64,000 nucleotides of DNA from contig JAMLHF010000002.1 of the NCBI GenBank assembly GCA_023957275.1, forward strand, positions 84,888 through 148,887, read 5' to 3'. A program made the translations under genes and the position numbers. This stretch comes from Lentimicrobium sp. GTDB lineage: Bacteria; Bacteroidota; Bacteroidia; Bacteroidales; Lentimicrobiaceae. The notes below the pieces were generated by a model, which was not told the DNA's origin, searched no databases, and worked only from the letters and a program-made list of their open reading frames with translations. Position 1 is the stretch's first letter. The number at the start of each line of letters is the position of its first letter. Shown one piece after another: positions 36 to 37,542 of the stretch.

Positions 36-458
36 TCAACAAGAGGATTGAAGATTTTTGATAAGATTATTAAGAGTATCTTCTCGTTTTTTTTCTTTTA
101 GCTGACACTCCCAAATAATTAAGACTTTCCAACCATCACTTTTCAAGATTTCAATGTTTTCTTTATCTCGTGCAATATTTCTATCAATTTTATCTTGCCA
201 AAATTGAGCGTTTGTCTTTGGCATTACATAGATTTTGCAGTTTTTGTGTCCGTGCCAAAAACAACCATTGATAAAAATTAATGTTTTGTATTTTGTTAGT
301 TTAATGTCAGGTTTCCCCGCCAATTTTTTATCATAAATGCGAAATCTAAATCCATTCGCAAATAAGAATTTTCTAACGATAATTTCGGGCTTCGTGTTTG
401 AGCTTTTTACGTGGCTCATTATTTCACTTCTTCTTTCTTTGCTTACTGTATCGGACAT
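36..458 (-). CDS. vsr: Very short patch repair (Vsr) endonuclease
   Basis: Vsr nicks DNA 5' of T:G mismatches left by deamination of 5-methylcytosine next to a cytosine methyltransferase. The 140-residue length is typical. Visible family blocks are the N-terminal RRSEIMSHVKSSNTKPE segment, GKPDIKL (metal-binding Asp), FINGCFWHGH (zinc and active-site region) and the C-terminal GWKVLIIWEC block. The ATG at 458 follows directly on the family's usual N-terminus. The gene is AT-rich compared with the next 30 kb and the partner methyltransferase is not in the window; it would have to lie beyond the left edge or be absent. The family call is secure; the biological partner is unknown. Confidence 0.93.
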   Translation of the reverse strand: MSDTVSKERRSEIMSHVKSSNTKPEIIVRKFLFANGFRFRIYDKKLAGKPDIKLTKYKTLIFINGCFWHGHKNCKIYVMPKTNAQFWQDKIDRNIARDKENIEILKSDGWKVLIIWECQLKEKKREDTLNNLIKNLQSSC

Positions 459-536
459 CTTTTTTGTTCCAAATTGCTAACTGCCTTTTCTTTAGAGTGA
501 AACACAACTGCCATATATTTTTGCAATTCCCGGATT

Positions 537-2531
537 CTAATTTTCTGAAACAATAAGTTTTTCCGTGAATATCCGGTTCCCGGATTGTAAGGTAACCAGG
601 TACGCACCTGCCGGATAGTTCCGGATATCGACGGGCAGTGAATGGATGCCCGGCAGATAATTTCTTACACCCGTATCAAACAGTTTTTTACCTGACAGGT
701 CGGTAAGGTATAATCTTACCGGCATCCGGGTCAGCAGGTTAAAGCTGATGACCGCCTGTCTGTTTGCCGGATTTGGTGTGATCAGGATATCGCTTGTACT
801 GGAAATGCTCAAGGGATCAGTGCCCACAAGCGTGGTTCCCTGTTTAAGCAGGATATGGTTACCGGGATCGAAGGTAAGGGCGACGGGCTCCTGATCGAAC
901 TGAAAAATAAACACCTGGCCGTTTTCATCATTGGTCACCCTGATCAGCGTATCTCCGCCATTTTTGAATGAAACCAGGATTTCTAAAGGCATTTCAAAGA
1001 ACGGGGCGTTTGTTTGTATCTGGCTGGCTTGGAAGTAAACATTCCAGAGTCCGCTCTCAACTTCCAGGAAACTATAGGTGTTGTTGTAAACAGGATGATT
1101 GGGCTCAAACAACCACTGGTTGAAAAACCAATCCAGTTCCTGCCCGGTGGCTTCATTCATTTTTTCAATGAAATCAGGGATGGTTGCTGATTGATATCTG
1201 AAGTTTACTGTATCGTTGGCATACTCATAAATACTATGGAAAAAGAGGGAGTCGCCCACCACGTAACGATACATATAAAGCACGCACGATGCTTTCATAT
1301 ATGTTATTGCGTAGTTGAAAAGCGTTGAGTTGGGAGGGGGATTGGTTGCCCAGGCCGGATTTGATATGGCCCAACCCGGGTTTTGCGCCAGGTAATAGCC
1401 GGCATTGCTTTCCATTTCTTCCTTATAAGCCTGATGTCCGTTAACTTCTCCCGTCCACGTTGCTTCAAAGTAAGTGGCAAAGCCCTCGTTCAGCCAAAGA
1501 TCTGCCCAGGTGGCACAGGTAATCATATCACCGAACCACTGGTGGGCAAATTCATGGGCGATAAGACTGGAATACCAGCATCCCTGGCAGAGGCTGGTCA
1601 GGGTCTGATTTTCCATCCCGCCCCACATAAACTGGGGGCTGAGTGTGGCAAATCCGTCTTTTTCGAAGGGATGGTCGCCAAACATCGAATAATAGAAGTC
1701 GGCCAGGGGGATGATCATATTTTGCATCTGCGACGGATTCTCCCCGGGGTTATAATAGAATCTGATCGGTAACGTGTCGTTCGGCTGTCCGGGTTTGGTC
1801 CAGTAAACGATATCCATATTGTAGTTCACCCTTGAGGAGATTACCATAAGATAGGTAGCGACCGGATCGCGGCTCACCCAGGTATACCAGGTTGTATCGT
1901 TCACCGCTACCGAATCGGTGAGGCTTCCGTTTGAGCCGAGTTTAACGTTTGACGGAACTTTGGCCCTTAGTGTCAGGGTTGCTTTATCATAAGGCTGGTC
2001 GTAACACGGGAACCATTTGCGTGCACCCTGTGGTTCGCAATCGGTAAAAACAAATCCATTGCCCACATAAAAAGCCAGATCGGGTACATCAAGGTGTTCA
2101 TATTCAATGCTGACCGATGCAACTTCTCCGGGTTGATACGCGCGGTCAAGCATAATAGTAAGGGTGTCCTGATCGTGGATAAATGAAGTTGCAGCCAACC
2201 CCACGGCGTTGATTTGCAGCGATGTCTGATCTGCATTGAGTTTAATGGCTGACAGTAAGGTGTCGATCCTGAATGTTATGATGTTAGATGCCGTGAATGT
2301 TCTGGGATAGGGCGGTGTATAACAATGGAAAATATCCAGATCAAGTTCGTAGTTCAATACATCGAAAGTGTGCAGCGGCGAATTGGGTGAGCGCAGGTTC
2401 AAAGGTTCCTGTTGCGGGCGCATCTGTTTGCCATGGGCGCAAAATTCGCTTCCCCTGGTGGTTTCAGTTACCTGGGCGTTGGCAATGATCACTGATATCA
2501 GCAGGCTTGAAATAATTGTCAGAAGTTTCAT
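537..2531 (-). CDS. M1 family aminopeptidase with T9SS sorting domain
   Basis: Zinc-dependent aminopeptidase predicted to be exported through the Sec system and then the type IX system. From the ATG at 2531 the protein has 664 residues: signal peptide 1-20 ending in ANAQ, M1 N-terminal beta domain, exopeptidase motif GGMEN (about 304-308, the family's GAMEN), zinc site HEFAHQWFGD (326-335) with the third ligand Glu near 349 (LWLNEGFATYFE), helical domain, and a C-terminal sorting domain from about 585 (TPNPANRQAVISF... to EKLIV). An in-frame ATG 33 bp upstream (2564) would only add residues ahead of the signal peptide, and the promoter box at 2553-2560 would then overlap the coding start. Divergent from the solute-binding lipoprotein gene. 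Confidence 0.93.
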   Translation of the reverse strand: MKLLTIISSLLISVIIANAQVTETTRGSEFCAHGKQMRPQQEPLNLRSPNSPLHTFDVLNYELDLDIFHCYTPPYPRTFTASNIITFRIDTLLSAIKLNADQTSLQINAVGLAATSFIHDQDTLTIMLDRAYQPGEVASVSIEYEHLDVPDLAFYVGNGFVFTDCEPQGARKWFPCYDQPYDKATLTLRAKVPSNVKLGSNGSLTDSVAVNDTTWYTWVSRDPVATYLMVISSRVNYNMDIVYWTKPGQPNDTLPIRFYYNPGENPSQMQNMIIPLADFYYSMFGDHPFEKDGFATLSPQFMWGGMENQTLTSLCQGCWYSSLIAHEFAHQWFGDMITCATWADLWLNEGFATYFEATWTGEVNGHQAYKEEMESNAGYYLAQNPGWAISNPAWATNPPPNSTLFNYAITYMKASCVLYMYRYVVGDSLFFHSIYEYANDTVNFRYQSATIPDFIEKMNEATGQELDWFFNQWLFEPNHPVYNNTYSFLEVESGLWNVYFQASQIQTNAPFFEMPLEILVSFKNGGDTLIRVTNDENGQVFIFQFDQEPVALTFDPGNHILLKQGTTLVGTDPLSISSTSDILITPNPANRQAVISFNLLTRMPVRLYLTDLSGKKLFDTGVRNYLPGIHSLPVDIRNYPAGAYLVTLQSGNRIFTEKLIVSEN

Positions 2532-2552
2532 GATCAGATGTTTTAATGAGTC

Positions 2553-2585
2553 CAAAGATATCATTTAAGCCAGCAACTTTTACAA
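2553..2585 (-). promoter_or_regulatory. Bacteroidota-type promoter for the M1 peptidase
   Basis: Read on the minus strand, a TATCTTTG box (2553-2560) matches the TAnnTTTG -7 consensus, and TTG at 2583-2585 lies 22 nt upstream as the -33 element. It sits about 20 nt before the chosen ATG at 2531. Confidence 0.6.
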
Positions 2586-2617
2586 AAAAGACATAGGGGC
2601 GGCTGCATGGCAGATTT

Positions 2618-2649
2618 TTGGGCAGGATGCCGCAATTATCCTAATTTTG
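2618..2649 (+). promoter_or_regulatory. Bacteroidota-type promoter for the solute-binding lipoprotein
   Basis: TTG at 2618-2620 (inside a TTTTTG run), 21-nt spacer, then TAATTTTG at 2642-2649, matching TTG-N19/21-TAnnTTTG. The ATG is 17 nt downstream at 2667, so the leader would be very short. Confidence 0.6.
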
Positions 2650-2666
2650 CGAGATGATTTCAGGAT

Positions 2667-4310
2667 ATGCCTCACAAGTTTAAGGGTCTGATTTTAGTTT
2701 CATCAATACTTTTCGTTTCCTGCAAAGGGATTCCCGATCAGCAGGCAGGTCAGACTGTTTTCCGGTATAACGAATCGTCAGGAGTTACCTCTCTGGATCC
2801 TGCATTTGCCCGTGACCAGGCAAATATCTGGTCTGTCAACCATCTGTTTAACAGTCTGGTACAGCTTGACAGCAACCTGAATGTTCAGCCATGCCTTGCC
2901 GGCAGCTGGACCGTGTCAGAAGATGGGACAGTATATGAGTTTCACGTTCGCAGTGATGTCAGTTTTCACGACAGTGAGGTTTTCGCCGGAGGAATTGGCA
3001 GAAAGTTGACGGCACGGGATGCTGAATATAGTTTAAAACGGCTTCTGGACCCCGGTCTGGCGTCTCCCGGAGCCTGGGTGCTGGCACCGGTAAAAATTCA
3101 GTCAGGGAAACCCGCCATCCGGGCGGTTGATGACACTACGCTTGTTATTGAGTTGACTGAACCATTTCCTCCCTTCCTTGGAATGCTCAGCATGCAGTAT
3201 TGTTCGGTTATTCCGCGCGAAGCTGTTGATTTTTACGGCGACGACTTCAGGGCCAATCCGGTCGGAACGGGACCTTTCCGGTTTGGGATGTGGAAAGAAG
3301 GGGTAAAACTTGTTCTTCTGAAAAACAAGAACTACTTTGAATCGCAGGGTAACAGGAAGCTTCCGTTTCTGGATGCGGTTGCCATAACTTTTATCGTTGA
3401 CAAGCAGACGGCTTTTCTTGAATTTGTGAAAGGAAATCTCGACTTTATGTCAGGCCTGGATGCTGCCTATAAGGATGAGATGCTGACGCCTTCCGGGAAA
3501 CTGAACCCAAAGTACCGGGGAAAAATAAACCTGTTGAGTCAGCCCTACCTGAATACAGAGTATCTGGGAATACTTATGGACCTTGAGAATCCATTATTAA
3601 AGGATAATCCTTTGTCGGACAGAAGAATCAGGCAGGCGATCAGCATGGGTTTTGATCGCAACAGACTGATAAGGTATCTCAGGAACAGTACCGGAACACC
3701 GGGCACGCATGGTTTCATTCCAAAAGGATTGCCCGGTTTTGCTGATTCAGGGCAATTCGGGTATGACTATAATCCTGAAAAAGCCAGACAACTCCTGGCT
3801 GAAGCCGGTTACCCGGGCGGGAAAGGCCTGCCACCCATTACTTTATCGACCAACGCCTCATACCTTGATATTTGTCAGTTTATTCAGAACCAGCTTTCTG
3901 TGATTGGCATAGATATGAAGATTGATGTTAGTCCGCCGGCAACCCTCAAGGAGAATATTGCACGTTCGAGGGTGTCATTTTTCAGGGGTTCCTGGATTGC
4001 TGATTATCCGGATGCCGAGAACTACCTGTCATTATTTTATTCCCGCAATTTCACCCCGGCCGGACCGAATTATACCCGTTTCGGCAGCGCTGAATTCGAC
4101 CGGCTGTACCTGTTGGCATCCGGGGAGAATAACTACGGAAAAAGGATGCAATATTACCGTCAGATGGATAGTCTGATTATGGAAGAAGCTCCGGTCATTG
4201 TGTTGTTTTACGATCAGGTGCTGCGTTTTGTAAGAAGCGACGTTTCAGGTCTGGGGTCAAATCCTTTGAATTTGTTGAATCTTAAAACAGTGCGAAAAAA
4301 TGGAGAATAA
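2667..4310 (+). CDS. ABC transporter substrate-binding lipoprotein, family 5 (peptide type)
   Basis: Periplasmic solute-binding lipoprotein of the oligopeptide/dipeptide (SBP_bac_5) family, 547 residues, usual length. Signal peptide with lipobox FVSC and acylated Cys19. Family landmarks include SLDPAFARDQ near the N-terminus, the LAGSWTVSEDGTVYEFHVR block, NPVGTGPFRF and the late block that reads WIADYPDAENYL. No ABC permease or ATPase lies beside it, so it is an orphan binding protein here or works with components elsewhere. The substrate cannot be assigned. It overlaps the next gene by 11 bp, suggesting co-transcription. Confidence 0.88.
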   Translation: MPHKFKGLILVSSILFVSCKGIPDQQAGQTVFRYNESSGVTSLDPAFARDQANIWSVNHLFNSLVQLDSNLNVQPCLAGSWTVSEDGTVYEFHVRSDVSFHDSEVFAGGIGRKLTARDAEYSLKRLLDPGLASPGAWVLAPVKIQSGKPAIRAVDDTTLVIELTEPFPPFLGMLSMQYCSVIPREAVDFYGDDFRANPVGTGPFRFGMWKEGVKLVLLKNKNYFESQGNRKLPFLDAVAITFIVDKQTAFLEFVKGNLDFMSGLDAAYKDEMLTPSGKLNPKYRGKINLLSQPYLNTEYLGILMDLENPLLKDNPLSDRRIRQAISMGFDRNRLIRYLRNSTGTPGTHGFIPKGLPGFADSGQFGYDYNPEKARQLLAEAGYPGGKGLPPITLSTNASYLDICQFIQNQLSVIGIDMKIDVSPPATLKENIARSRVSFFRGSWIADYPDAENYLSLFYSRNFTPAGPNYTRFGSAEFDRLYLLASGENNYGKRMQYYRQMDSLIMEEAPVIVLFYDQVLRFVRSDVSGLGSNPLNLLNLKTVRKNGE

Positions 4311-11362: not shown

Positions 11363-14263
11363 ATGCGTTCTATTAAATTGTTTCTTGTTTTGCTGTTGAC
11401 AACATCGATGGTTGCTGTTCTTCACGCTCAGAATGGTTTTATCCGCGGCAGCGTATTTGATGATGCGACCGGCGAAACATTGCCGGGAGTAACAATATTT
11501 GCGGAGGGAACGACAAATGGCACCCTCACGGATTTTGATGGTAAATTTAACCTTAGCATTGCTCCCGGCACTTACAATCTCAGGATTTCCTTCATATCAT
11601 ATGAAACCATTAATTTGAAAAATATTAAGGTTGAAGCGGGAAAGGTTAGTCTTTTTGAGAACCTCAGGCTGAAGGAAGCCAAAATTGAACTGACAGAAGT
11701 CACCATTACTGCTGAGGCCGTGCGGAATTCGGAAGTTGCGCTTCTGACTATGAAGCAAAAATCGGCAAATCTCATTGACGGAATTTCAGCAGCCAATTTC
11801 AGAAAAATAGGAGACTCCGATGCTGCCTCATCCATGAAAAGGGTAGCCGGTGTTTCAGTTGAAGGCGGTAAATATGTATATGTACGTGGGTTGGGCGACA
11901 GGTATTCCAAAACAATTCTAAACGGGATGGATATTCCGGGAATCGATCCTGACCGGAATACGGTGCAGATGGATTTATTCCCGACCAATATTGTGGATAA
12001 TATTATTGTCCACAAATCCTTCAGTGCCTATCTTCCGGCTGATTTTACCGGTGGTGTGGTTGATATTGAAACCAAAGATTTCCCCGAGTTAAAAACCGGC
12101 AATGTGTCTTTAAATCTCGGTTATAATCCGGAGTTTCATTTCAATAAAGATTATCTTACCTATGAGGGTGGAAAAAATGATTTTCTCGGGTTCGATGACG
12201 GAACCCGCGCCATACCCGCAACTGATAACATTCCGCAATTCTCGGAGGTAGCAGGAAATCCTGATGGGGAAAAAGGGTTGCGGTATAAAGAGATTCTTAA
12301 AGGATTTAACACCGTGATGGGTGCCACCCGCGAAACCAGTCTGATGGATTTCAGCCTGGGGGTTTCTGTTGGCAACCAGATACCGAAAAACAAAGTGACC
12401 TGGGGCTACAACGCATCTCTTTCTTACAAAAACACTACAGAGTATTACAAAAACGCGGAATATGGCCGGTATGGGGTTGATCCGGCAAAACCGGATTTTT
12501 ATGAAATGGAATACCGTGAGTTTCAGAAAGGCGACTATGGAGTCAACAGTGTTATGCTCAGCGCAATGGCTGGTATTGCAATGAAAACCAAATACTCCAA
12601 GTTCAGACTTAATATACTTCACCTTCAGAACGGAGAGAAAAGAGCCGGCATTTTTAATTACAGCAATTCGGATCTTGGAGCAGTTTTTGAAGGTGTTCAG
12701 CATAACCTGGAATATACCCAGCGGTCCATGACAAATGTTTTATTGAATGGTAAGCATATGTTTTCTGATAATAACTGGCAAATTGAATGGAAGCTATCTC
12801 CTTCACTTTCAAAACTGGATGACCCTGACATTCGTTTTACCAGATATGAAATAAAAGAGGAAAAATATATCATCGGAACGGAAGCTGGTTTTCCTGAGCG
12901 TATCTGGCGGGAACTTGATGAAGTCAGTTTAACCGGAAATTTTGACATCAGCAGGAATCTGCTTGTTTTTGGAAGCAAGTCTCAGTTGAGATTCGGTGGT
13001 CTTTTAACACGCAAGGACCGGAGTTTTATAATACGTAACTTTCAGTTGAATGTCAGGAATATACCTTTGACCGGCGATCCGGATGAATTGTTCTTCCCTG
13101 AAAATTTATGGCCATATAATGGGAATGCTTCACGGGGGACTACTTTTGAAACGCCCTTTATTCCGGTTAACCCAAATCAGTTTGATGCAAACAACCTGAA
13201 TACGGCAGGCTATCTTTCATGGGAAGTGTCGCCATTGAAATACCTTAAACTGATTGTGGGAGTAAGAACTGAAATGTATCAGCAGCGGTATACCGGACAG
13301 AATCAATTGGGTGATATTGTGCTTGACAATGAAAAAGTGCTGGACGATCTGGATGTATTTCCGGCTGCCAATGTTATCTTTAGCCTTAACCAAAGCCAGA
13401 ACCTGAGGTTTTCTTACTCTAAAACCATTGCACGCCCTTCTATGAAAGAACTTTCGTTTGCTGAAATTTTTGATGCAATTACCGGCAGGACTTTTATCGG
13501 AGGTTTATTTACTGACGCCAATGATCAGCTGGGCATTACCTATTGGGACGGTAATCTGACAAGCACCCGGATTGATAATCTTGATGTAAGATGGGAAATG
13601 TTCGGGAAGGGCGGTCAGACAATTTCATTCGGAGCTTTTTACAAATATTTTAAAGATCCCATCGAAATTGTACAGTATTTTACGCAGGCAGGTGCTTTCC
13701 AGCCGCGTAACGTCGGTGATGGCCAATTGCTTGGCCTGGAAGCTGAATTCAGGAAAAATCTTGATTTCCTGTTTCCTTCACTTTCCGGAATCAGTCTGAG
13801 CTCTAATTTTACTTATAGTTTTTCCCGGATCAGGCTCAGTTCCACCGAGTATGAATCGAGGCTTGCCAACGCTAGAACTGGCGAAACAATAGATGAATAC
13901 CGCAGCATGGCTGGACAAGCGCCCTTCATTATCAATGCCGGATTAGCTTACGATGGCTCCGGCAAAGGGATCTTCAACGGGCTTGAGGCTGGTTTATATT
14001 ACAATGTCCAGGGCCCCACCCTCGAAGTGGTGGGGATTGCCGACCGGCCGGACGTATATTCCAGGTCGTTCAACAGCCTGAACCTGAACATCAACAAAAC
14101 CTTCGGCGAAAGCAAAAAACTGCAGCTGGGGCTCAAAATTGAAAATATCCTGGGTGATGTTAAGGAATCTGTATTTCAGTCGTTTGAGGCTGCAGACCAG
14201 TTCTATACCTACCTCAATCAGGGACGCACGTTCCAGCTCAGGCTTGGATACAGGTTCTTTTAA
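11363..14263 (+). CDS. TonB-dependent outer-membrane receptor (SusC-like N-terminus)
   Basis: 966-residue receptor from ATG 11363 (MRSIKLFLVLLLTTSMVAVLHAQ signal peptide); the GTG eight codons upstream is rejected. Residues about 25-105 form a carboxypeptidase-regulatory-like domain (GSVFDDATGETLPGVTI, TDFDGKFNLS). The plug domain follows, with the marker VRGLGDRYSKTILNG, then the 22-strand barrel ending in the aromatic LRLGYRFF. It imports a ligand too large for porins using TonB energy. The preceding surface lipoprotein gene is likely its partner. No SusD homologue was seen, so this is not a standard SusCD glycan pair. Confidence 0.93.
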   Translation: MRSIKLFLVLLLTTSMVAVLHAQNGFIRGSVFDDATGETLPGVTIFAEGTTNGTLTDFDGKFNLSIAPGTYNLRISFISYETINLKNIKVEAGKVSLFENLRLKEAKIELTEVTITAEAVRNSEVALLTMKQKSANLIDGISAANFRKIGDSDAASSMKRVAGVSVEGGKYVYVRGLGDRYSKTILNGMDIPGIDPDRNTVQMDLFPTNIVDNIIVHKSFSAYLPADFTGGVVDIETKDFPELKTGNVSLNLGYNPEFHFNKDYLTYEGGKNDFLGFDDGTRAIPATDNIPQFSEVAGNPDGEKGLRYKEILKGFNTVMGATRETSLMDFSLGVSVGNQIPKNKVTWGYNASLSYKNTTEYYKNAEYGRYGVDPAKPDFYEMEYREFQKGDYGVNSVMLSAMAGIAMKTKYSKFRLNILHLQNGEKRAGIFNYSNSDLGAVFEGVQHNLEYTQRSMTNVLLNGKHMFSDNNWQIEWKLSPSLSKLDDPDIRFTRYEIKEEKYIIGTEAGFPERIWRELDEVSLTGNFDISRNLLVFGSKSQLRFGGLLTRKDRSFIIRNFQLNVRNIPLTGDPDELFFPENLWPYNGNASRGTTFETPFIPVNPNQFDANNLNTAGYLSWEVSPLKYLKLIVGVRTEMYQQRYTGQNQLGDIVLDNEKVLDDLDVFPAANVIFSLNQSQNLRFSYSKTIARPSMKELSFAEIFDAITGRTFIGGLFTDANDQLGITYWDGNLTSTRIDNLDVRWEMFGKGGQTISFGAFYKYFKDPIEIVQYFTQAGAFQPRNVGDGQLLGLEAEFRKNLDFLFPSLSGISLSSNFTYSFSRIRLSSTEYESRLANARTGETIDEYRSMAGQAPFIINAGLAYDGSGKGIFNGLEAGLYYNVQGPTLEVVGIADRPDVYSRSFNSLNLNINKTFGESKKLQLGLKIENILGDVKESVFQSFEAADQFYTYLNQGRTFQLRLGYRFF

Positions 14264-32713: not shown

Positions 32714-32789
32714 TAGGCGGCTAATCATACTGCCGTAGCGTTGGGCATAATTTGAAATGACACCATCGTCACAACAAAAACTCTATAAT

Positions 32790-33905
32790 ATGAAAACAAT
32801 TATTAAGATTTTAGTTTTAGCAATAGGATTAACAACGCAATTATATGGTCAGGATTTTCCAGATGATTTTTATAATGCGGAAAAGAAAATTATTAAATCA
32901 GAAGTTCTTAATTTGGAAAAGCTCTTGTTTATATACTTACCAAATAACTATTATAAAGATACCACCAAATCATACCCGGTACATTATTTGACAGATGCTC
33001 CTACTACTTCAAATATCTACTTTGATTTATTAAGGTTACATAGTTTGGCGAATACTGTTCCCCAAAGCATTGTTGTTGGTTTGTCAAGTGATAATAGAAA
33101 TTACAACTTATATCCTGAAAAAGGAGCAGAAAAATATCTGCAATTTATAAAAAGTGAAGTTATTCCATATATTGATAAGAATTATAGAACTAATCTCTTT
33201 AAAGTCATAGCAGGGCATTCTCTTGGTGGAGATTTTGTAATCTATACAATGATTAAAGAACCTTCGCTTTTCAACGCATACATTGCAGGAAGCCCTGGTC
33301 CCATAGAAACTATAATTAGATTATTGGATACAACTGAATATAAACTAAACTCTACTGATTATAAATTCTTCTATTCTTCAATTGGTTCTGATGATTTCAC
33401 TGACACAGTGGCTTTTGACCAATTCAGAGAAAAACTGAAAGCAGAAGTTTCAAAAAAAGTTGATTGTAATTTTGATATTAATAAAGGCGAAAACCATATT
33501 TCAAATATTGTAATAAATTATCAAAAAGGGATTACTAAACTATATAGTGACTGGCAATTTATTTTGCCAGATAATTTAAACAAACCAATTAGTGAAGAAT
33601 TGAAATCCCACTATGATAAATTAGAAAATAAATTTGGATATAGACCAGAAATAGGTGAATGGGACGTCATTTTTCCAATAATGGATATTTTAGCAAAAAG
33701 GGGTGATTTTAAAAATGCAATAGATATATTGAAATATTGTATCGAGATACATCCAATGTCTGACCAAGCTTATGCATTTTTAGCCAAAGCACATTTTGAT
33801 GCAGGACAAATGGAATTAGGTATGAAATATTTAAAAAAATCACTTGAATTAAATCCCGAAAATCCATTTGCTCTGAGAATGAAAATGATGATTGAAAATA
33901 AATAA
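32790..33905 (+). CDS. Cassette 1: exported esterase-like alpha/beta hydrolase with C-terminal TPR
   Basis: 371 residues from ATG 32790 (MKTIIKILVLAIGLTTQLYGQ signal peptide); an in-frame ATG at 32757 only adds residues ahead of it. The middle is a putative esterase domain (PF00756-like): YPVHYLTDAP, FIKSEVIPYIDKNYRT, nucleophile elbow AGHSLGGDFV, and KGENHISNI with the likely catalytic His. The last ~90 residues contain a TPR pair (DFKNAIDILKYCIEIHPM, MELGMKYLKKSLELNPENP). Similar architecture to the chromosomal gene at 51181. AT-rich; occupies the first cassette, 44 bp after the GTTGGGC site. Confidence 0.85.
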   Translation: MKTIIKILVLAIGLTTQLYGQDFPDDFYNAEKKIIKSEVLNLEKLLFIYLPNNYYKDTTKSYPVHYLTDAPTTSNIYFDLLRLHSLANTVPQSIVVGLSSDNRNYNLYPEKGAEKYLQFIKSEVIPYIDKNYRTNLFKVIAGHSLGGDFVIYTMIKEPSLFNAYIAGSPGPIETIIRLLDTTEYKLNSTDYKFFYSSIGSDDFTDTVAFDQFREKLKAEVSKKVDCNFDINKGENHISNIVINYQKGITKLYSDWQFILPDNLNKPISEELKSHYDKLENKFGYRPEIGEWDVIFPIMDILAKRGDFKNAIDILKYCIEIHPMSDQAYAFLAKAHFDAGQMELGMKYLKKSLELNPENPFALRMKMMIENK

Positions 33906-33913
33906 CAAACTAT

Positions 33914-34045
33914 GCCCAACATTTTGTATAAGTAATGGCAGGGAATGTGGTAAATATCAAGGTTTGTAGCCCGCTCAAACAGTTTAGCGGTTTGACAGGA
34001 AACTACCACGCAATCTGCCACTACTCATACAATTTACCGTTATGT
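33914..34045 (+). repeat. attC-like recombination site 1
   Basis: 132 bp. R'' GCCCAAC at the left, R' GTTATGT at the right. The arms pair over more than 30 bp: TTGTATAAGTAATGGCAG on the left against CTGCCACTACTCATACAA on the right, with extra unpaired bases (GGTA complement near R') as expected of extrahelical bases in attC. An inner CCGCT/AGCGG stem is also present. Differs in sequence from sites 2 and 3. Confidence 0.78.
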
Positions 34046-34088
34046 GTGATTGTAAGTAAAACAGTAAAGTATTAACTGATTAATATTA

Positions 34089-34922
34089 ATGGTAATGGTC
34101 AAAATAGTTTTTTTTATTAGTATTCTTGCTTGCATAAGCAATATAGGTTTAACTCAAAATGCTATTCTAGCAGGACAAACTAGTGGTAATAACATTCAAT
34201 ATACTGATTTAGAGCCTGACTCTTCTCTAATAGCGTACAATCCTCCAGAAAGTTTCTTTTTAGATATTAATAATGATGGAATTGATGATTTGAGATTCTG
34301 CGGTTGTTTTGAAGGAGAATATAGTATGTATAAAAAAATATATACTTCCGTAGAGTCAATAAACAATAAAGTAACTATACTCGCTGATGGATCCATTGCT
34401 AAAAAACTAGAATTTGGAGATTCTATTTCTGAAAATCAAAATTGGAGCACTAATAATAGCATACTTGAGCTCGCAGTACATTATATCAGATATTATCCAC
34501 CACCAGAGTCTGACTCAGTCTATGGCTTTAGAGGTTCGGGTTATTTGGGCTTTAAGATAGAAGAGCAAAATGAGACTTTTTACGGTTGGATAAATATTAC
34601 AACATCCCAAAGTTCTATACAAGTAAAGGAAATAGGAATTTGTGGATTAACTGTTGGTGTATTAATAGCTGAAAAGAATCGCGATTTTCAATTATTCCCA
34701 AATCCCTGTAGAAATGAATTGGAATTTGATATTGATTTACTGAATGAAAACGAATTAAGCTATCAGGTATTAGACTTTTTAGGTAGAGTAGTCATTGAAA
34801 AAAATATTGTAGAAGGAAGGACAAAAATTAACACTTTGGAACTAGCTCCTGGCATCTATATACTTAGAATTGTAAATGGAGTGAAATTATTTAAGGTTGA
34901 AAAATTTATTAAACAAGGTTAA
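34089..34922 (+). CDS. Cassette 2: exported protein with T9SS sorting domain
   Basis: 277 residues; signal peptide up to about GLTQN (ATG 34089 or, two codons later, 34095). The N-terminal 190 residues are beta-rich with a possible calcium-like DINNDGIDD segment and no recognised enzyme motif. The C-terminus is a type A T9SS sorting domain (LFPNPCRNELEFDI ... APGIYILRI ... KVEKFIKQ). A cargo protein for the host's type IX machinery carried on a mobile cassette. Similar proteins often have unknown roles. Confidence 0.8.
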   Translation: MVMVKIVFFISILACISNIGLTQNAILAGQTSGNNIQYTDLEPDSSLIAYNPPESFFLDINNDGIDDLRFCGCFEGEYSMYKKIYTSVESINNKVTILADGSIAKKLEFGDSISENQNWSTNNSILELAVHYIRYYPPPESDSVYGFRGSGYLGFKIEEQNETFYGWINITTSQSSIQVKEIGICGLTVGVLIAEKNRDFQLFPNPCRNELEFDIDLLNENELSYQVLDFLGRVVIEKNIVEGRTKINTLELAPGIYILRIVNGVKLFKVEKFIKQG

Positions 34923-34946
34923 TAGCGAAAAAACAACAACAAACAC

Positions 34947-35078
34947 ACATAACAAAGGCTAAAACGCTATCGGGCGCATGGTTGTAAGGAGAAAGATTGT
35001 ACATTTATTGAAAATTGTGCTGTCCGGAAAGATATATTTTCAAAAGTGCCCGCCATCGTTTAGCCTTGGCCGTTAGTG
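34947..35078 (+). repeat. attC-like recombination site 2
   Basis: 132 bp. R'' ACATAAC and R' GTTAGTG. Left arm AAAGGCTAAAACGCTATCGGGCGC pairs with right arm GTGCCCGCCATCGTTTAGCCTT over about 25 bp. Nearly identical to site 3 except in the terminal arms. Confidence 0.78.
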
Positions 35079-35092
35079 GCAAGCAAAAAAGA

Positions 35093-35581
35093 ATGAAATA
35101 CTACCTAGTAATAATTTTTATAACATTATCCTTTTCTGTCGAAGGACAAAAAAGCATCTACTTATATTTTAATGATGTAGGGTTTTGTGGGCCAGGACCT
35201 TTAATCATGGAAGAATTAACCTTGTTTGAAGATAATTCATTTGAATATACATCCTTTCAATATCCTAATTTGAAAATAGAAACCTCAGGTCATTTCTCGA
35301 AAGGAAAGAAATATATTTCATTGGAATATCAAGTCTTAAAAATTGATACTCTTGATAAAAGCAAAGAAACAGGAGAAATTAACAACTTGCAATTTATCTC
35401 CGAGTTAAAAATTATTAATGACAAGGATTGGCTTAAGAATAAGGGTGGAATGCTTATTGAATGTGGCAAGTTGTTCGGGTCAAAAATAAAAATGCTTGAA
35501 CCAAGAAAAAGAAGAGTTATAATACTTAAAACAATTGATTACAAGACAGTTAACAAAATGCCAGCCACTAACAAAGGCTAA
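35093..35581 (+). CDS. Cassette 3: small exported protein, function unknown
   Basis: 162 residues from ATG 35093 (MKYYLVIIFITLSFSVEGQ signal peptide); the open frame extends upstream to 35015 but that part lies in the attC site. Body has a GFCGPGPLIMEELTLFEDNSFEY block, predicted beta-rich. No family recognised. The last codons (MPATNKG) run into the next attC site and the stop is inside it, a tight fit typical of cassettes. Confidence 0.75.
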   Translation: MKYYLVIIFITLSFSVEGQKSIYLYFNDVGFCGPGPLIMEELTLFEDNSFEYTSFQYPNLKIETSGHFSKGKKYISLEYQVLKIDTLDKSKETGEINNLQFISELKIINDKDWLKNKGGMLIECGKLFGSKIKMLEPRKRRVIILKTIDYKTVNKMPATNKG

Positions 35582-35696
35582 AACGCTATCTGGCGTATGG
35601 TTGTAAGGAGAAAGATTGTACATTTATTGAAAATTGTGCTGGCCGGAATGATACATTTTCAAAAGTGCCTGCCAGCGCAAAGCCTGGACGTTATGC
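35566..35696 (+). repeat. attC-like recombination site 3
   Basis: 131 bp. R'' CACTAAC and R' GTTATGC. Near-identical to site 2 through the central 90 bp. The right arm (GCCAGCGCAAAGCCTGGAC) pairs less perfectly with the left arm. Overlaps the 3' end of cassette gene 3 and the ATG of cassette gene 4. Confidence 0.78.
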
Positions 35697-36094
35697 GTAA
35701 TTTTATAATATTCACCATATTATTTTCAACTCTAATCTTAATCAGTGGATGCATCTTTTCTCAAAAGAATGATTGTTCCTCATTTAAAACAGGAAAATTT
35801 GAATTAATAGATGAACAGCACTCACTTCACTATTTGGTAGAAAGAGATGATTTTATTCAAACTGAGACTAATGTAAAAACTGGACAAATCTCAAGCTTTA
35901 AGATAAAGTGGTTAAACAAGTGTGAATATCAATTAGAAATGATATCTGGAAGCAATCAGGCCATGGAGTTTTATAAAGGGAAAAAGCTGATTGTCAATAT
36001 CGTTGAAACATATCCTGATGGATATAAATTCTCAACACAATTAGAGGGTGATGAGAGAATAAGGTATCAAACATTGAGAAGAGTAAACAAATAA
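35693..36094 (+). CDS. Cassette 4: small lipoprotein, function unknown
   Basis: 133 residues; the ATG at 35693 is part of the heptamer GTTATGC. Signal peptide MRNFIIFTILFSTLILISGC, acylated Cys20. The body (KTGKFELIDEQHSLHYLVERDDFIQTETN, then IKWLNKCEYQLEM) resembles small Bacteroidota proteins with a lipocalin-like strand pattern, but no firm family is assigned. Upstream codons of the open frame back to 35597 lie in the attC site and are not counted. Confidence 0.75.
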   Translation: MRNFIIFTILFSTLILISGCIFSQKNDCSSFKTGKFELIDEQHSLHYLVERDDFIQTETNVKTGQISSFKIKWLNKCEYQLEMISGSNQAMEFYKGKKLIVNIVETYPDGYKFSTQLEGDERIRYQTLRRVNK

Positions 36095-36106
36095 ACTACG
36101 CATAAT

Positions 36107-36580
36107 AAATAGGAATATGAGCGGTCTGCAATTCCGATTGCTGTCGGAACCAGCCATTATTACAGGTAAATTAACCGGACCATTATAATTGTTTCTTCCG
36201 CTAATTCAGCCTCCGCCATTCCACTTCAACCTGCACCAGCCTCTCCGGAACTTTAACGGATTTTCTTTTTTCGTTGCGCATCGCAGCGGAATTCGGGGTC
36301 AGGATGGTCCGGAATCTATAATAGATGGGGCGGGGAGAGATTACTTAAATATCGGGGAAAAAGCATTTTTGTATCTTTACGGGATGCTGCAGTAGGTTAG
36401 GTTCAGCATGTGTGTATGTGGCAATAACGGGTGAAGTGGTAAATCAAAGGTCCGTGCCTTTCAGAAATTTTGTGCTGAACTTACAGGTAAGTGCTTCCGG
36501 CCGCTGCTGCTTATGCCGCAAAACACCAGCCAAATGCGACAGCGCAATGGACAATGGAACAGAAAATTGAAGTAATATAA
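36107..36580. other. Intergenic region after the cassette array
   Basis: 470 bp without a gene. It contains copy A of a dispersed repeat (36244-36390). The sequence right after the last R''-like heptamer is not homologous to the attC sites, so the array appears broken here. Confidence 0.5.
36244..36390 (+). repeat. Dispersed repeat, copy A
   Basis: About 147 bp similar to 37116-37265, with shared blocks TCCGGAA, GATTTT.TTTTT, GGTCAGG.TG.TCCGGAATCT, GGGGAGAGATTAC, GCATTTTTGTATCTTT and GGGATGCTGC. It ends in TATCTTTA (36372-36379), close to the -7 consensus. Confidence 0.6.
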
Positions 36581-37096: not shown

Positions 37097-37542
37097 AATT
37101 GCCGGCGCCTGCAAATCCGGAACTTCAGCAGATTTTGTTTTTCCGGCGTGTTTCGTTGCGAAATGCGGAGTCAGGTTGATCCGGAATCTGCAACAGGCGG
37201 GTTTTGGGGAGAGATTACCTTAAGAGCAGAAAAAAGGCATTTTTGTATCTTTGCGGGGATGCTGCCGGAGGTTTGGTCCGGCAAAGGGTGTAGCCATTGC
37301 GGGCTGATTTAGGTACTTCGAAGCTGAATCACCCGTTTGGGGCGGTCTTGTCGTGAGGCAAAACCGAAACCCGCCCTCCCGCAAACGCGCCGTCCCCGGC
37401 CGTTGTGCTTGTTTTAGACAAGAAGACACTGTTTCCTGACAGCAGAGAATTGATGTTATCAGCGAGAAACAAAATCACAAATTCAGGTTAAATCGGGAAA
37501 AAGGATTTCTGCTATTTTACAATTTAGAACGTGGTTAATCAT
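37097..37542. other. Intergenic region with repeat copy B
   Basis: 446 bp without a gene. Copy B of the dispersed repeat at 37116-37265, followed by GC-rich DNA with several inverted repeats (for example around 37346-37380). Confidence 0.5.
37116..37265 (+). repeat. Dispersed repeat, copy B
   Basis: About 150 bp homologous to 36244-36390. It ends with TATCTTTG (37246-37253), an exact TAnnTTTG -7 box, so the repeat may carry an outward promoter. Confidence 0.6.

Follow-up and report, generated by a model that had tools for sequence, protein, structure and literature searches.

The 64,000-nucleotide stretch of DNA analysed here (the window), taken from the Lentimicrobium sp. contig JAMLHF010000002.1, carries at positions 32740-36106 four short co-oriented genes that form the four cassettes of an integron-like array. 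Each cassette opens with a GTT box (R') and closes with the 9-10 nt reverse complement of that box (R''). The two ends are an exact pair in cassette 1 (GTTGGGCAT/ATGCCCAAC), cassette 2 (GTTATGTGTG/CACACATAAC) and cassette 3 (GTTAGTGGC/GCCACTAAC); in cassette 4 (GTTATGCGTA/TACGCATAAT) they differ by one mismatch, at the last base. The original prediction, made from the letters of the window, had described four genes enclosed by matched heptamers, three pairs being perfect and the fourth off by one base. Direct reading and a script bore this out, the pairs proving longer than stated. Three full palindromic sites lie between the genes, measuring 124, 124 and 123 nt from AAC to GTT. The palindromes had been recognized correctly, while the length of 131-132 bp given for them was too large, the R boxes having been partly counted in. 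Over 117 nt, sites 2 and 3 share 91% identity; site 1 has a different sequence of equal length. When the covariance model R1 (see below) was run on the window, no complete site was found 3' of the cassette 4 gene; the remainder of the site at this end is missing or decayed. Feature positions are collected in Table 1.

Table 1. Features of the cassette array, with positions in the window.
Feature	Position	Strand	Remarks
R' box opening cassette 1, GTTGGGCATA	32740..32749	+	array's upstream boundary
Cassette 1 gene, putative esterase with C-terminal TPR	32790..33905	+	Pfam PF00756 1.3e-17, TPR
attC-like site 1, ATGCCCAAC R'' ... GTTATGTGT R'	33912..34047, core 33918-34041, 124 nt	+	R1 97.3 bits
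Cassette 2 gene, secretion system C-terminal sorting domain (Por_Secre_tail, type IX-like)	34089..34922	+	Pfam PF18962 7.1e-10
attC-like site 2, CACACATAAC R'' ... GTTAGTGGC R'	34944..35080, core 34951-35074, 124 nt	+	R1 128.8 bits
Cassette 3 gene, 162 aa, without Pfam match; 3' end overlaps site 3	35093..35581	+	
attC-like site 3, GCCACTAAC R'' ... GTTATGCGTA R'	35564..35699, core 35570-35692, 123 nt	+	R1 118.9 bits
Cassette 4 gene, about 133 aa, without Pfam match	35693..36094	+	
R''-like end of cassette 4, TACGCATAAT	36097..36106	+	9/10 complementary to own R'

A chance test on both strands of the window, for exact 9-mers on both sides of spacers of 40-199 nt, gave four counts at spacer 118, two at 104 and two at 139. 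Because each site is counted once per strand, these figures amount to two true sites and two others; site 3 is not among them because the fourth pair is mismatched. At E≤5, Rfam produced three matches in the window, all below the cut-offs and none of them an integron site, and a search of a plasmid collection by DNA similarity with site 2 yielded no match. Inverted-repeat ends on each cassette could also mark small transposon-like elements, one per "cassette", with terminal inverted repeats of 9-10 bp. Such elements would not account for ends that differ between cassettes yet pair within each, nor for a head-to-tail order with a structured site of near-constant length, and none of the four window genes has a transposase match in Pfam. 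We therefore give this explanation an extremely low probability. Just 3' of the array lies a second repeat pair (36230-36408 and 37102-37283), 70-83% identical in three blocks, and a weak partial R1 match is seen at 36421-36510 (E 0.0041 in the window scan, 0.08 in the genome scan).

A DNA search of the same genome revealed further copies of the sites on contig C83, in a second array (L029) whose cassettes include a MazF-like toxin gene with a weak MazE-like partner and an amidohydrolase gene. A third array (L028) was identified by pattern scan in a Chitinophagales metagenome-assembled genome. Scanning the three arrays for exact 9-mer matches on both sides of spacers of 112-123 nt returned 10 sites, whose spacers measure either 117 or 118. 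The R1 model was seeded with 11 sites read as the bottom strand, two further L028 sites being excluded since they aligned out of register. R1 recognized 20 full-length sites in the window's genome at E≤6.5e-6 (seven of them model seeds), together with three weaker matches. Sites were present in 66 of 99 genomes of the order (E≤1e-3); at least one was found in 209/395 genomes of the class, eight candidates being scored per genome, and in 69/148 genomes of the phylum (both at E≤1e-6). Plasmids of Chryseobacterium sp. SNU WT5 (four R1 sites) and Persicobacter sp. JZB09 (one) also carry them. The named relatives and the type IX-like sorting domain of the cassette 2 protein both point to Bacteroidota as the phylum of the window. 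Related genomes with other genes between such sites, a check proposed with the original prediction, were found. Contigs C6, C35, C89, C98 and C141 of genome G000 have R1 sites at low coordinates (229-3401), and in other genomes many integrase matches (see below) lie close to contig ends; the arrays may break assemblies. IS110-family transposases occur in or beside several arrays (L269:13254-14255, L271:15929-16987, L272:11841-13196).

The sites share a structure that is kept through sequence change. Among the 11 seeds, 95% of cells are paired, 14 of the 22 stem pairs are changed on both sides and covariation reaches 0.547, compared with 0.161 in shuffled alignments. An alignment of 110 distinct sites, fitted to the R1 model itself, has 95.7% of its cells paired and 689 double-change cells versus a shuffled mean of 195. 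One stem pair is G.U in 109 of these 110 sites and reads A.C on the top strand. The bottom strand is the better folder in 82/110 whole sites and in 101/110 stems, which, along with the covariation, suggests that these sites adopt the single-strand bottom hairpin typical of attC. The conserved G.T wobble is probably what determines which strand is used. The bottom-strand folding anticipated for the sites thus holds across the collection; for the three window sites folded singly it is less clear (bottom-strand z of -2.9, -2.0 and -0.5, against top-strand z of -1.8, -1.5 and -1.1). Long imperfect palindromes between co-oriented genes, two of them as alike as sites 2 and 3, might alternatively represent RNA terminators or attenuators, or elements resembling repetitive extragenic palindromes (REP) or miniature inverted-repeat transposable elements (MITE), in the absence of any recombination. 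We regard this as very improbable, given that the mRNA-sense strand is the worse folder, that the matching boxes flank each gene on its two outer sides and are not part of the palindromes, that the sites are linked to a recombinase and that a shared cassette has its boundary at GTT (see below for the latter two points).

The pairing of cassette ends could be assessed with R1 matches because the model contains no box bases beyond AAC and GTT. From 93 matches, 17 were left out (12 repeats in overlapping loci and five that either had an odd length, between 83 and 170 nt, or were truncated at a locus end), leaving 76 non-seed matches from 52 loci. The cassette-specific 9-mer of R'' pairs with the upstream GTT 9-mer in 37 of 65 testable cases, and that of R' is paired downstream in 31 of 59. 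Over 200 permutations the means were 2.5% (upstream) and 2.1% (downstream) and the maxima 9.2% and 8.8%. The ends are therefore complementary within the cassette far beyond chance, as originally proposed. With odd lengths dropped, the 76 sites measure 120-127 nt. Among 74 R boxes, the first base is G in 72, position 4 is a purine (A or G) in 69 and position 9 a pyrimidine (C or T) in 60; positions 5-7 are mixed. The R box of classical integrons has the consensus GTTRRRY (RYYYAAC at the other end). These boxes do not conform to it, and the suggestion that recombination takes place at G/TTRRRY has to be replaced by a box made of GTTR followed by variable, yet pairing, bases.

One cassette is common to L029, where it stands behind site d, and to L028, the sites preceding it being unrelated. 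From GTT to the point where the contig ends, the two copies agree in 246 of 263 columns, compared with 17 of 60 columns before GTT. Such a comparison suggests that cassettes move between sites. A group II intron (RF01999, RF00029, reverse transcriptase; L029:10969-12916) lies within the GTT box of this same cassette. In this it resembles the attC-targeting group IIC introns that classical integrons harbour.

In genomes of the order, the search for the classical integrase IntI also picked up partial matches (109-137 bits), several of which share a contig with sites. The proteins concerned are tyrosine recombinases whose open frames span 283-593 aa (at least 368 aa in 17 of 18). The distance from the K..DR to the HxLRH motif is 64-68 in 18/18 of them, against 106 in 30/30 IntI proteins. 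A classical integron is defined by an integrase with the IntI-specific additional domain (PMC9668308), and alignment and motif distances agree that the new integrases do not have it. On TIGR02249 they score 207-220 bits, none of six reaching the cut-off of 265. In a phylogenetic tree, the new integrases, together with seven IMG/VR relatives and TnpF (see below), form a clade (support 96) that is sister to the IntI clade (support 100); the genome's XerC and XerD fall outside both, the outgroup consisting of two Xer proteins only and not including archaeal XerA. Adding six named members gave supports of 94 and 100, respectively. The catalytic domain resembles XerA, XerC and XerD in being without the IntI insertion, and the XerA_Arch model NF040815 gives 199.4-219.3 bits, just under its cut-off of 220 in 6/6 and about level with TIGR02249 for the same number of proteins. 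Unlike XerC and XerD, the new integrases group with IntI and are linked to cassette arrays. The best matches in PDB were 4a8e (XerC-like, 228 bits), 5hxy (XerA, 216) and 2a3v (IntI4, 212). The Chryseobacterium member is already labelled "site-specific tyrosine recombinase/integron integrase" by NCBI. Clade relatives on IMG/VR contigs L153, L155, L158 and L159 are compact (276-301 aa), without a long N-terminal extension, and IMG/VR contigs classed as viral carry R1 sites beside such relatives; in phage records, the best match was 41% identical and covered under half of the query. A HARP domain (PF07443) was considered for the integrases and rejected as too weak, with 4/18 at E≤0.1 and a best value of 3.5e-5 (23.7 bits, cut-off 25).

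The new integrase and the sites occur together. With a threshold of E≤1e-70, at which some of the matches are interrupted or incomplete frames, the integrase is present in 41/99 genomes of the order and 51/148 of the phylum. In the order, sites were found in 38/41 integrase-positive versus 28/58 integrase-negative genomes (p=2.8e-6); in the phylum, in 40/51 versus 29/97 (p=1.6e-8). Among the best 150 matches listed, sites were no farther than 20 kb from the new integrase in 26 of the 35 genomes with both. When 18 clade members were retrieved with their flanks, nine had R1 sites in the stretch, and in all nine loci, which belong to the order, the integrase gene was upstream of the cassettes and co-oriented with them. 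In seven of the nine, the R'' of the first site matches a GTT situated 24-200 nt behind the integrase stop codon, as an attI beside the integrase gene would; no such junction is present in the window's genome. The idea of an integron-like array, which the hairpins and the cassette-specific ends already supported, is further strengthened by these relatives, where a recombinase adjoins the arrays and the first junction is attI-like. A hairpin upstream of the first GTT was seen in L126, L127, L129, L134, L029 and L228 (reached by 0-4 of 200 shuffles), was absent from L124, L125, L130, L271 and the window, and was not significant in L269 (20/200). It is therefore not a general attI feature.

Several observations weigh against a system defined by this integrase and these sites. 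A search of the window's own genome for IntI and for the new integrase found neither, the only candidates being XerD-like and XerC-like genes (C60, C82) and two weaker frames (C128, C127); the window array is therefore an orphan in this assembly. Sites persist in the 28 integrase-negative genomes of the order and in 23 of 68 phylum genomes with neither integrase. Conversely, 3 of 41 integrase-positive genomes in the order and 11 of 51 in the phylum have no R1 match; some clade members precede shorter sites that R1 misses. Two of the nine loci, L128 and L137, have no attI-like match close behind the integrase, and on the IMG/VR contigs the cassettes are on the strand opposite to the integrase. 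On the Chryseobacterium plasmid, R'' is matched upstream at two of the four R1 sites and unmatched at the other two. Finally, R1 sites adjoin a classical IntI in genome G005.

The last observation, like the lack of either integrase in the window's genome, would fit a remnant of a classical integron (CALIN, cluster of attC sites lacking integron-integrases), in which ordinary attC cassettes had been captured by a classical IntI since lost. IntI is indeed common in the phylum, where 105/395 genomes exceed the cut-off. It is rare in the order, however, with 2/99, and shows no association with the sites: in the phylum, R1 sites are present in 17/46 IntI-positive and 52/102 IntI-negative genomes, and they lay within 20 kb of IntI in one of the 17 genomes with both (among the best 150 matches listed). 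Moreover, a scan of 16 of the 30 IntI loci, with flanks of about 1.5 kb, gave no R1 match in any of the 16, and the R box departs from the classical rule (see above). On this evidence a classical remnant appears unlikely.

We consider it highly probable that the window contains the cassette array of an integron-like Bacteroidota system with its own, non-IntI integrase, sister to IntI. In its workings this system resembles an integron; judged by its integrase, it falls outside the classical integrons defined by IntI, and very likely it is a lineage of its own. In the proposed mechanism, a cassette would be released as a circle and then inserted anew, with recombination occurring at the G/TT of the sites. 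Each site would fold as a bottom-strand hairpin that has AAC/GTT at its base, a stem of 19 bp and an asymmetric spacer left unpaired; the conserved G.T wobble of the stem would make the bottom strand fold better. The enzyme would be a member of the tyrosine recombinase family that is sister to IntI and devoid of its specific insertion, usually with an N-terminal extension, weakly HARP-like in some members. In loci of the order with sites, the integrase would act from a co-oriented gene immediately preceding the array, and the stop codon of this gene would be followed, mostly after 24-200 nt, by the first junction (attI). Cassette arrays, GTT junctions, R''/R' pairing within the cassette, a bottom-strand hairpin and an attI-like junction by the integrase gene in relatives are all traits of classical integrons, as are the MazF-like toxin cassette with its weak MazE-like partner and the group II intron inside a site, both in L029. 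The differences are the integrase, which belongs to a sister clade without the IntI-specific insertion and is co-oriented with the cassettes (9/9 order loci), the R box, of 9-10 nt and not GTTRRRY, the conserved G.T wobble and the near-constant site length.

Similar arrangements have been described in other contexts. The clusters termed rAID (recombinase-associated acquired interbacterial defence), known from gut Bacteroidales, consist of a tyrosine recombinase followed by co-oriented short genes with conserved intergenic motifs (PMC12247911). That layout is found in relatives such as L124-L130; the window array differs from it in having no recombinase and, among its four genes, no immunity-gene match in Pfam. 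On a Parabacteroides plasmid, a clade member (support 100 with an IMG/VR member) is followed by genes with annotations as type VI secretion system immunity and SMI1/KNR4 proteins, an array that we read as rAID-type. There, neighbouring ends match over 8-11 nt in 7/7 pairs, the seventh over 8 nt with the box at 13137; among non-neighbour pairs, 5/49 match over 7 nt and 1/49 over 8 nt. These sites are unlike those of the window in being short (36-40 nt between boxes), in having an R' that begins with ATT rather than GTT and in their immunity cargo, and R1 did not find them. Sites on Rufibacter and Pontibacter plasmids have a spacer of 52-53 nt. The paper of Ross (2019) is said to be the founding report on rAID. 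In papers with the phrase "acquired interbacterial defence", among the matches listed and with the founding paper outside the scope, the word "integron" was not found.

A second case is the TnpF/XerD gene that adjoins tet(X) in Acinetobacter and Flavobacteriaceae. TnpF, encoded next to tet(X3) in Acinetobacter, is a shortened clade member. It is 69.7% identical to L126 over 238 aa and groups with L126 and L134 (support 97). The tet(X3) gene starts about 190 nt behind TnpF, in the place that a first cassette takes up in arrays of the clade. A GTT box lies between the two genes, with an inverted repeat upstream of it. The R'-like box before tet(X3) and the R''-like end behind it do not match each other, and R1 gave no site in the tet(X3) regions at E≤5; a cassette origin of tet(X3) is therefore a suggestion only. 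Adjacency of tet(X) and xerD is on record (PMC11194056, PMC7473080). In Riemerella anatipestifer, a resistance gene supplied on a PCR fragment is integrated even though the fragment has no flanking homology. The inserts always include 27 bp on the 5' side and 140 bp on the 3' side of the gene, the latter stretch folding in an attC-like manner; the sections of the report on this integration name no recombinase (PMC13148043). Such homology-independent integration is consistent with the system proposed here.

The phylum Bacteroidota is already known to include carriers of integrons (PMC8618304, PMC9668308), and passages of the IntegronFinder 2.0 survey list one complete integron in Bacteroidetes proper, that of Salinibacter ruber (PMC9024848). 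Of the class genomes sampled here, over half (209/395) have one or more sites of the present kind. Among the papers listed, titles and the beginnings of abstracts, with subscription papers outside the scope, contained no description of this integrase clade with these arrays. We lean towards the view that a second integron lineage extends across the Bacteroidota, having an integrase clade of its own, sister to IntI and without the IntI domain, and folded single-strand sites marked by a conserved G.T pair, and that rAID arrays, the XerD/TnpF-tet(X) association and the uptake of DNA in Riemerella belong to this one system. The biogenesis of rAID arrays is referred to as an area of active research (PMC12247911). 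If this view is correct, it would provide a mechanism both for these immunity arrays and for homology-free integration in R. anatipestifer, tet(X3) would be the likely first cassette of a Bacteroidota integron, and the IntI-specific domain would be dispensable for integron-like arrays.

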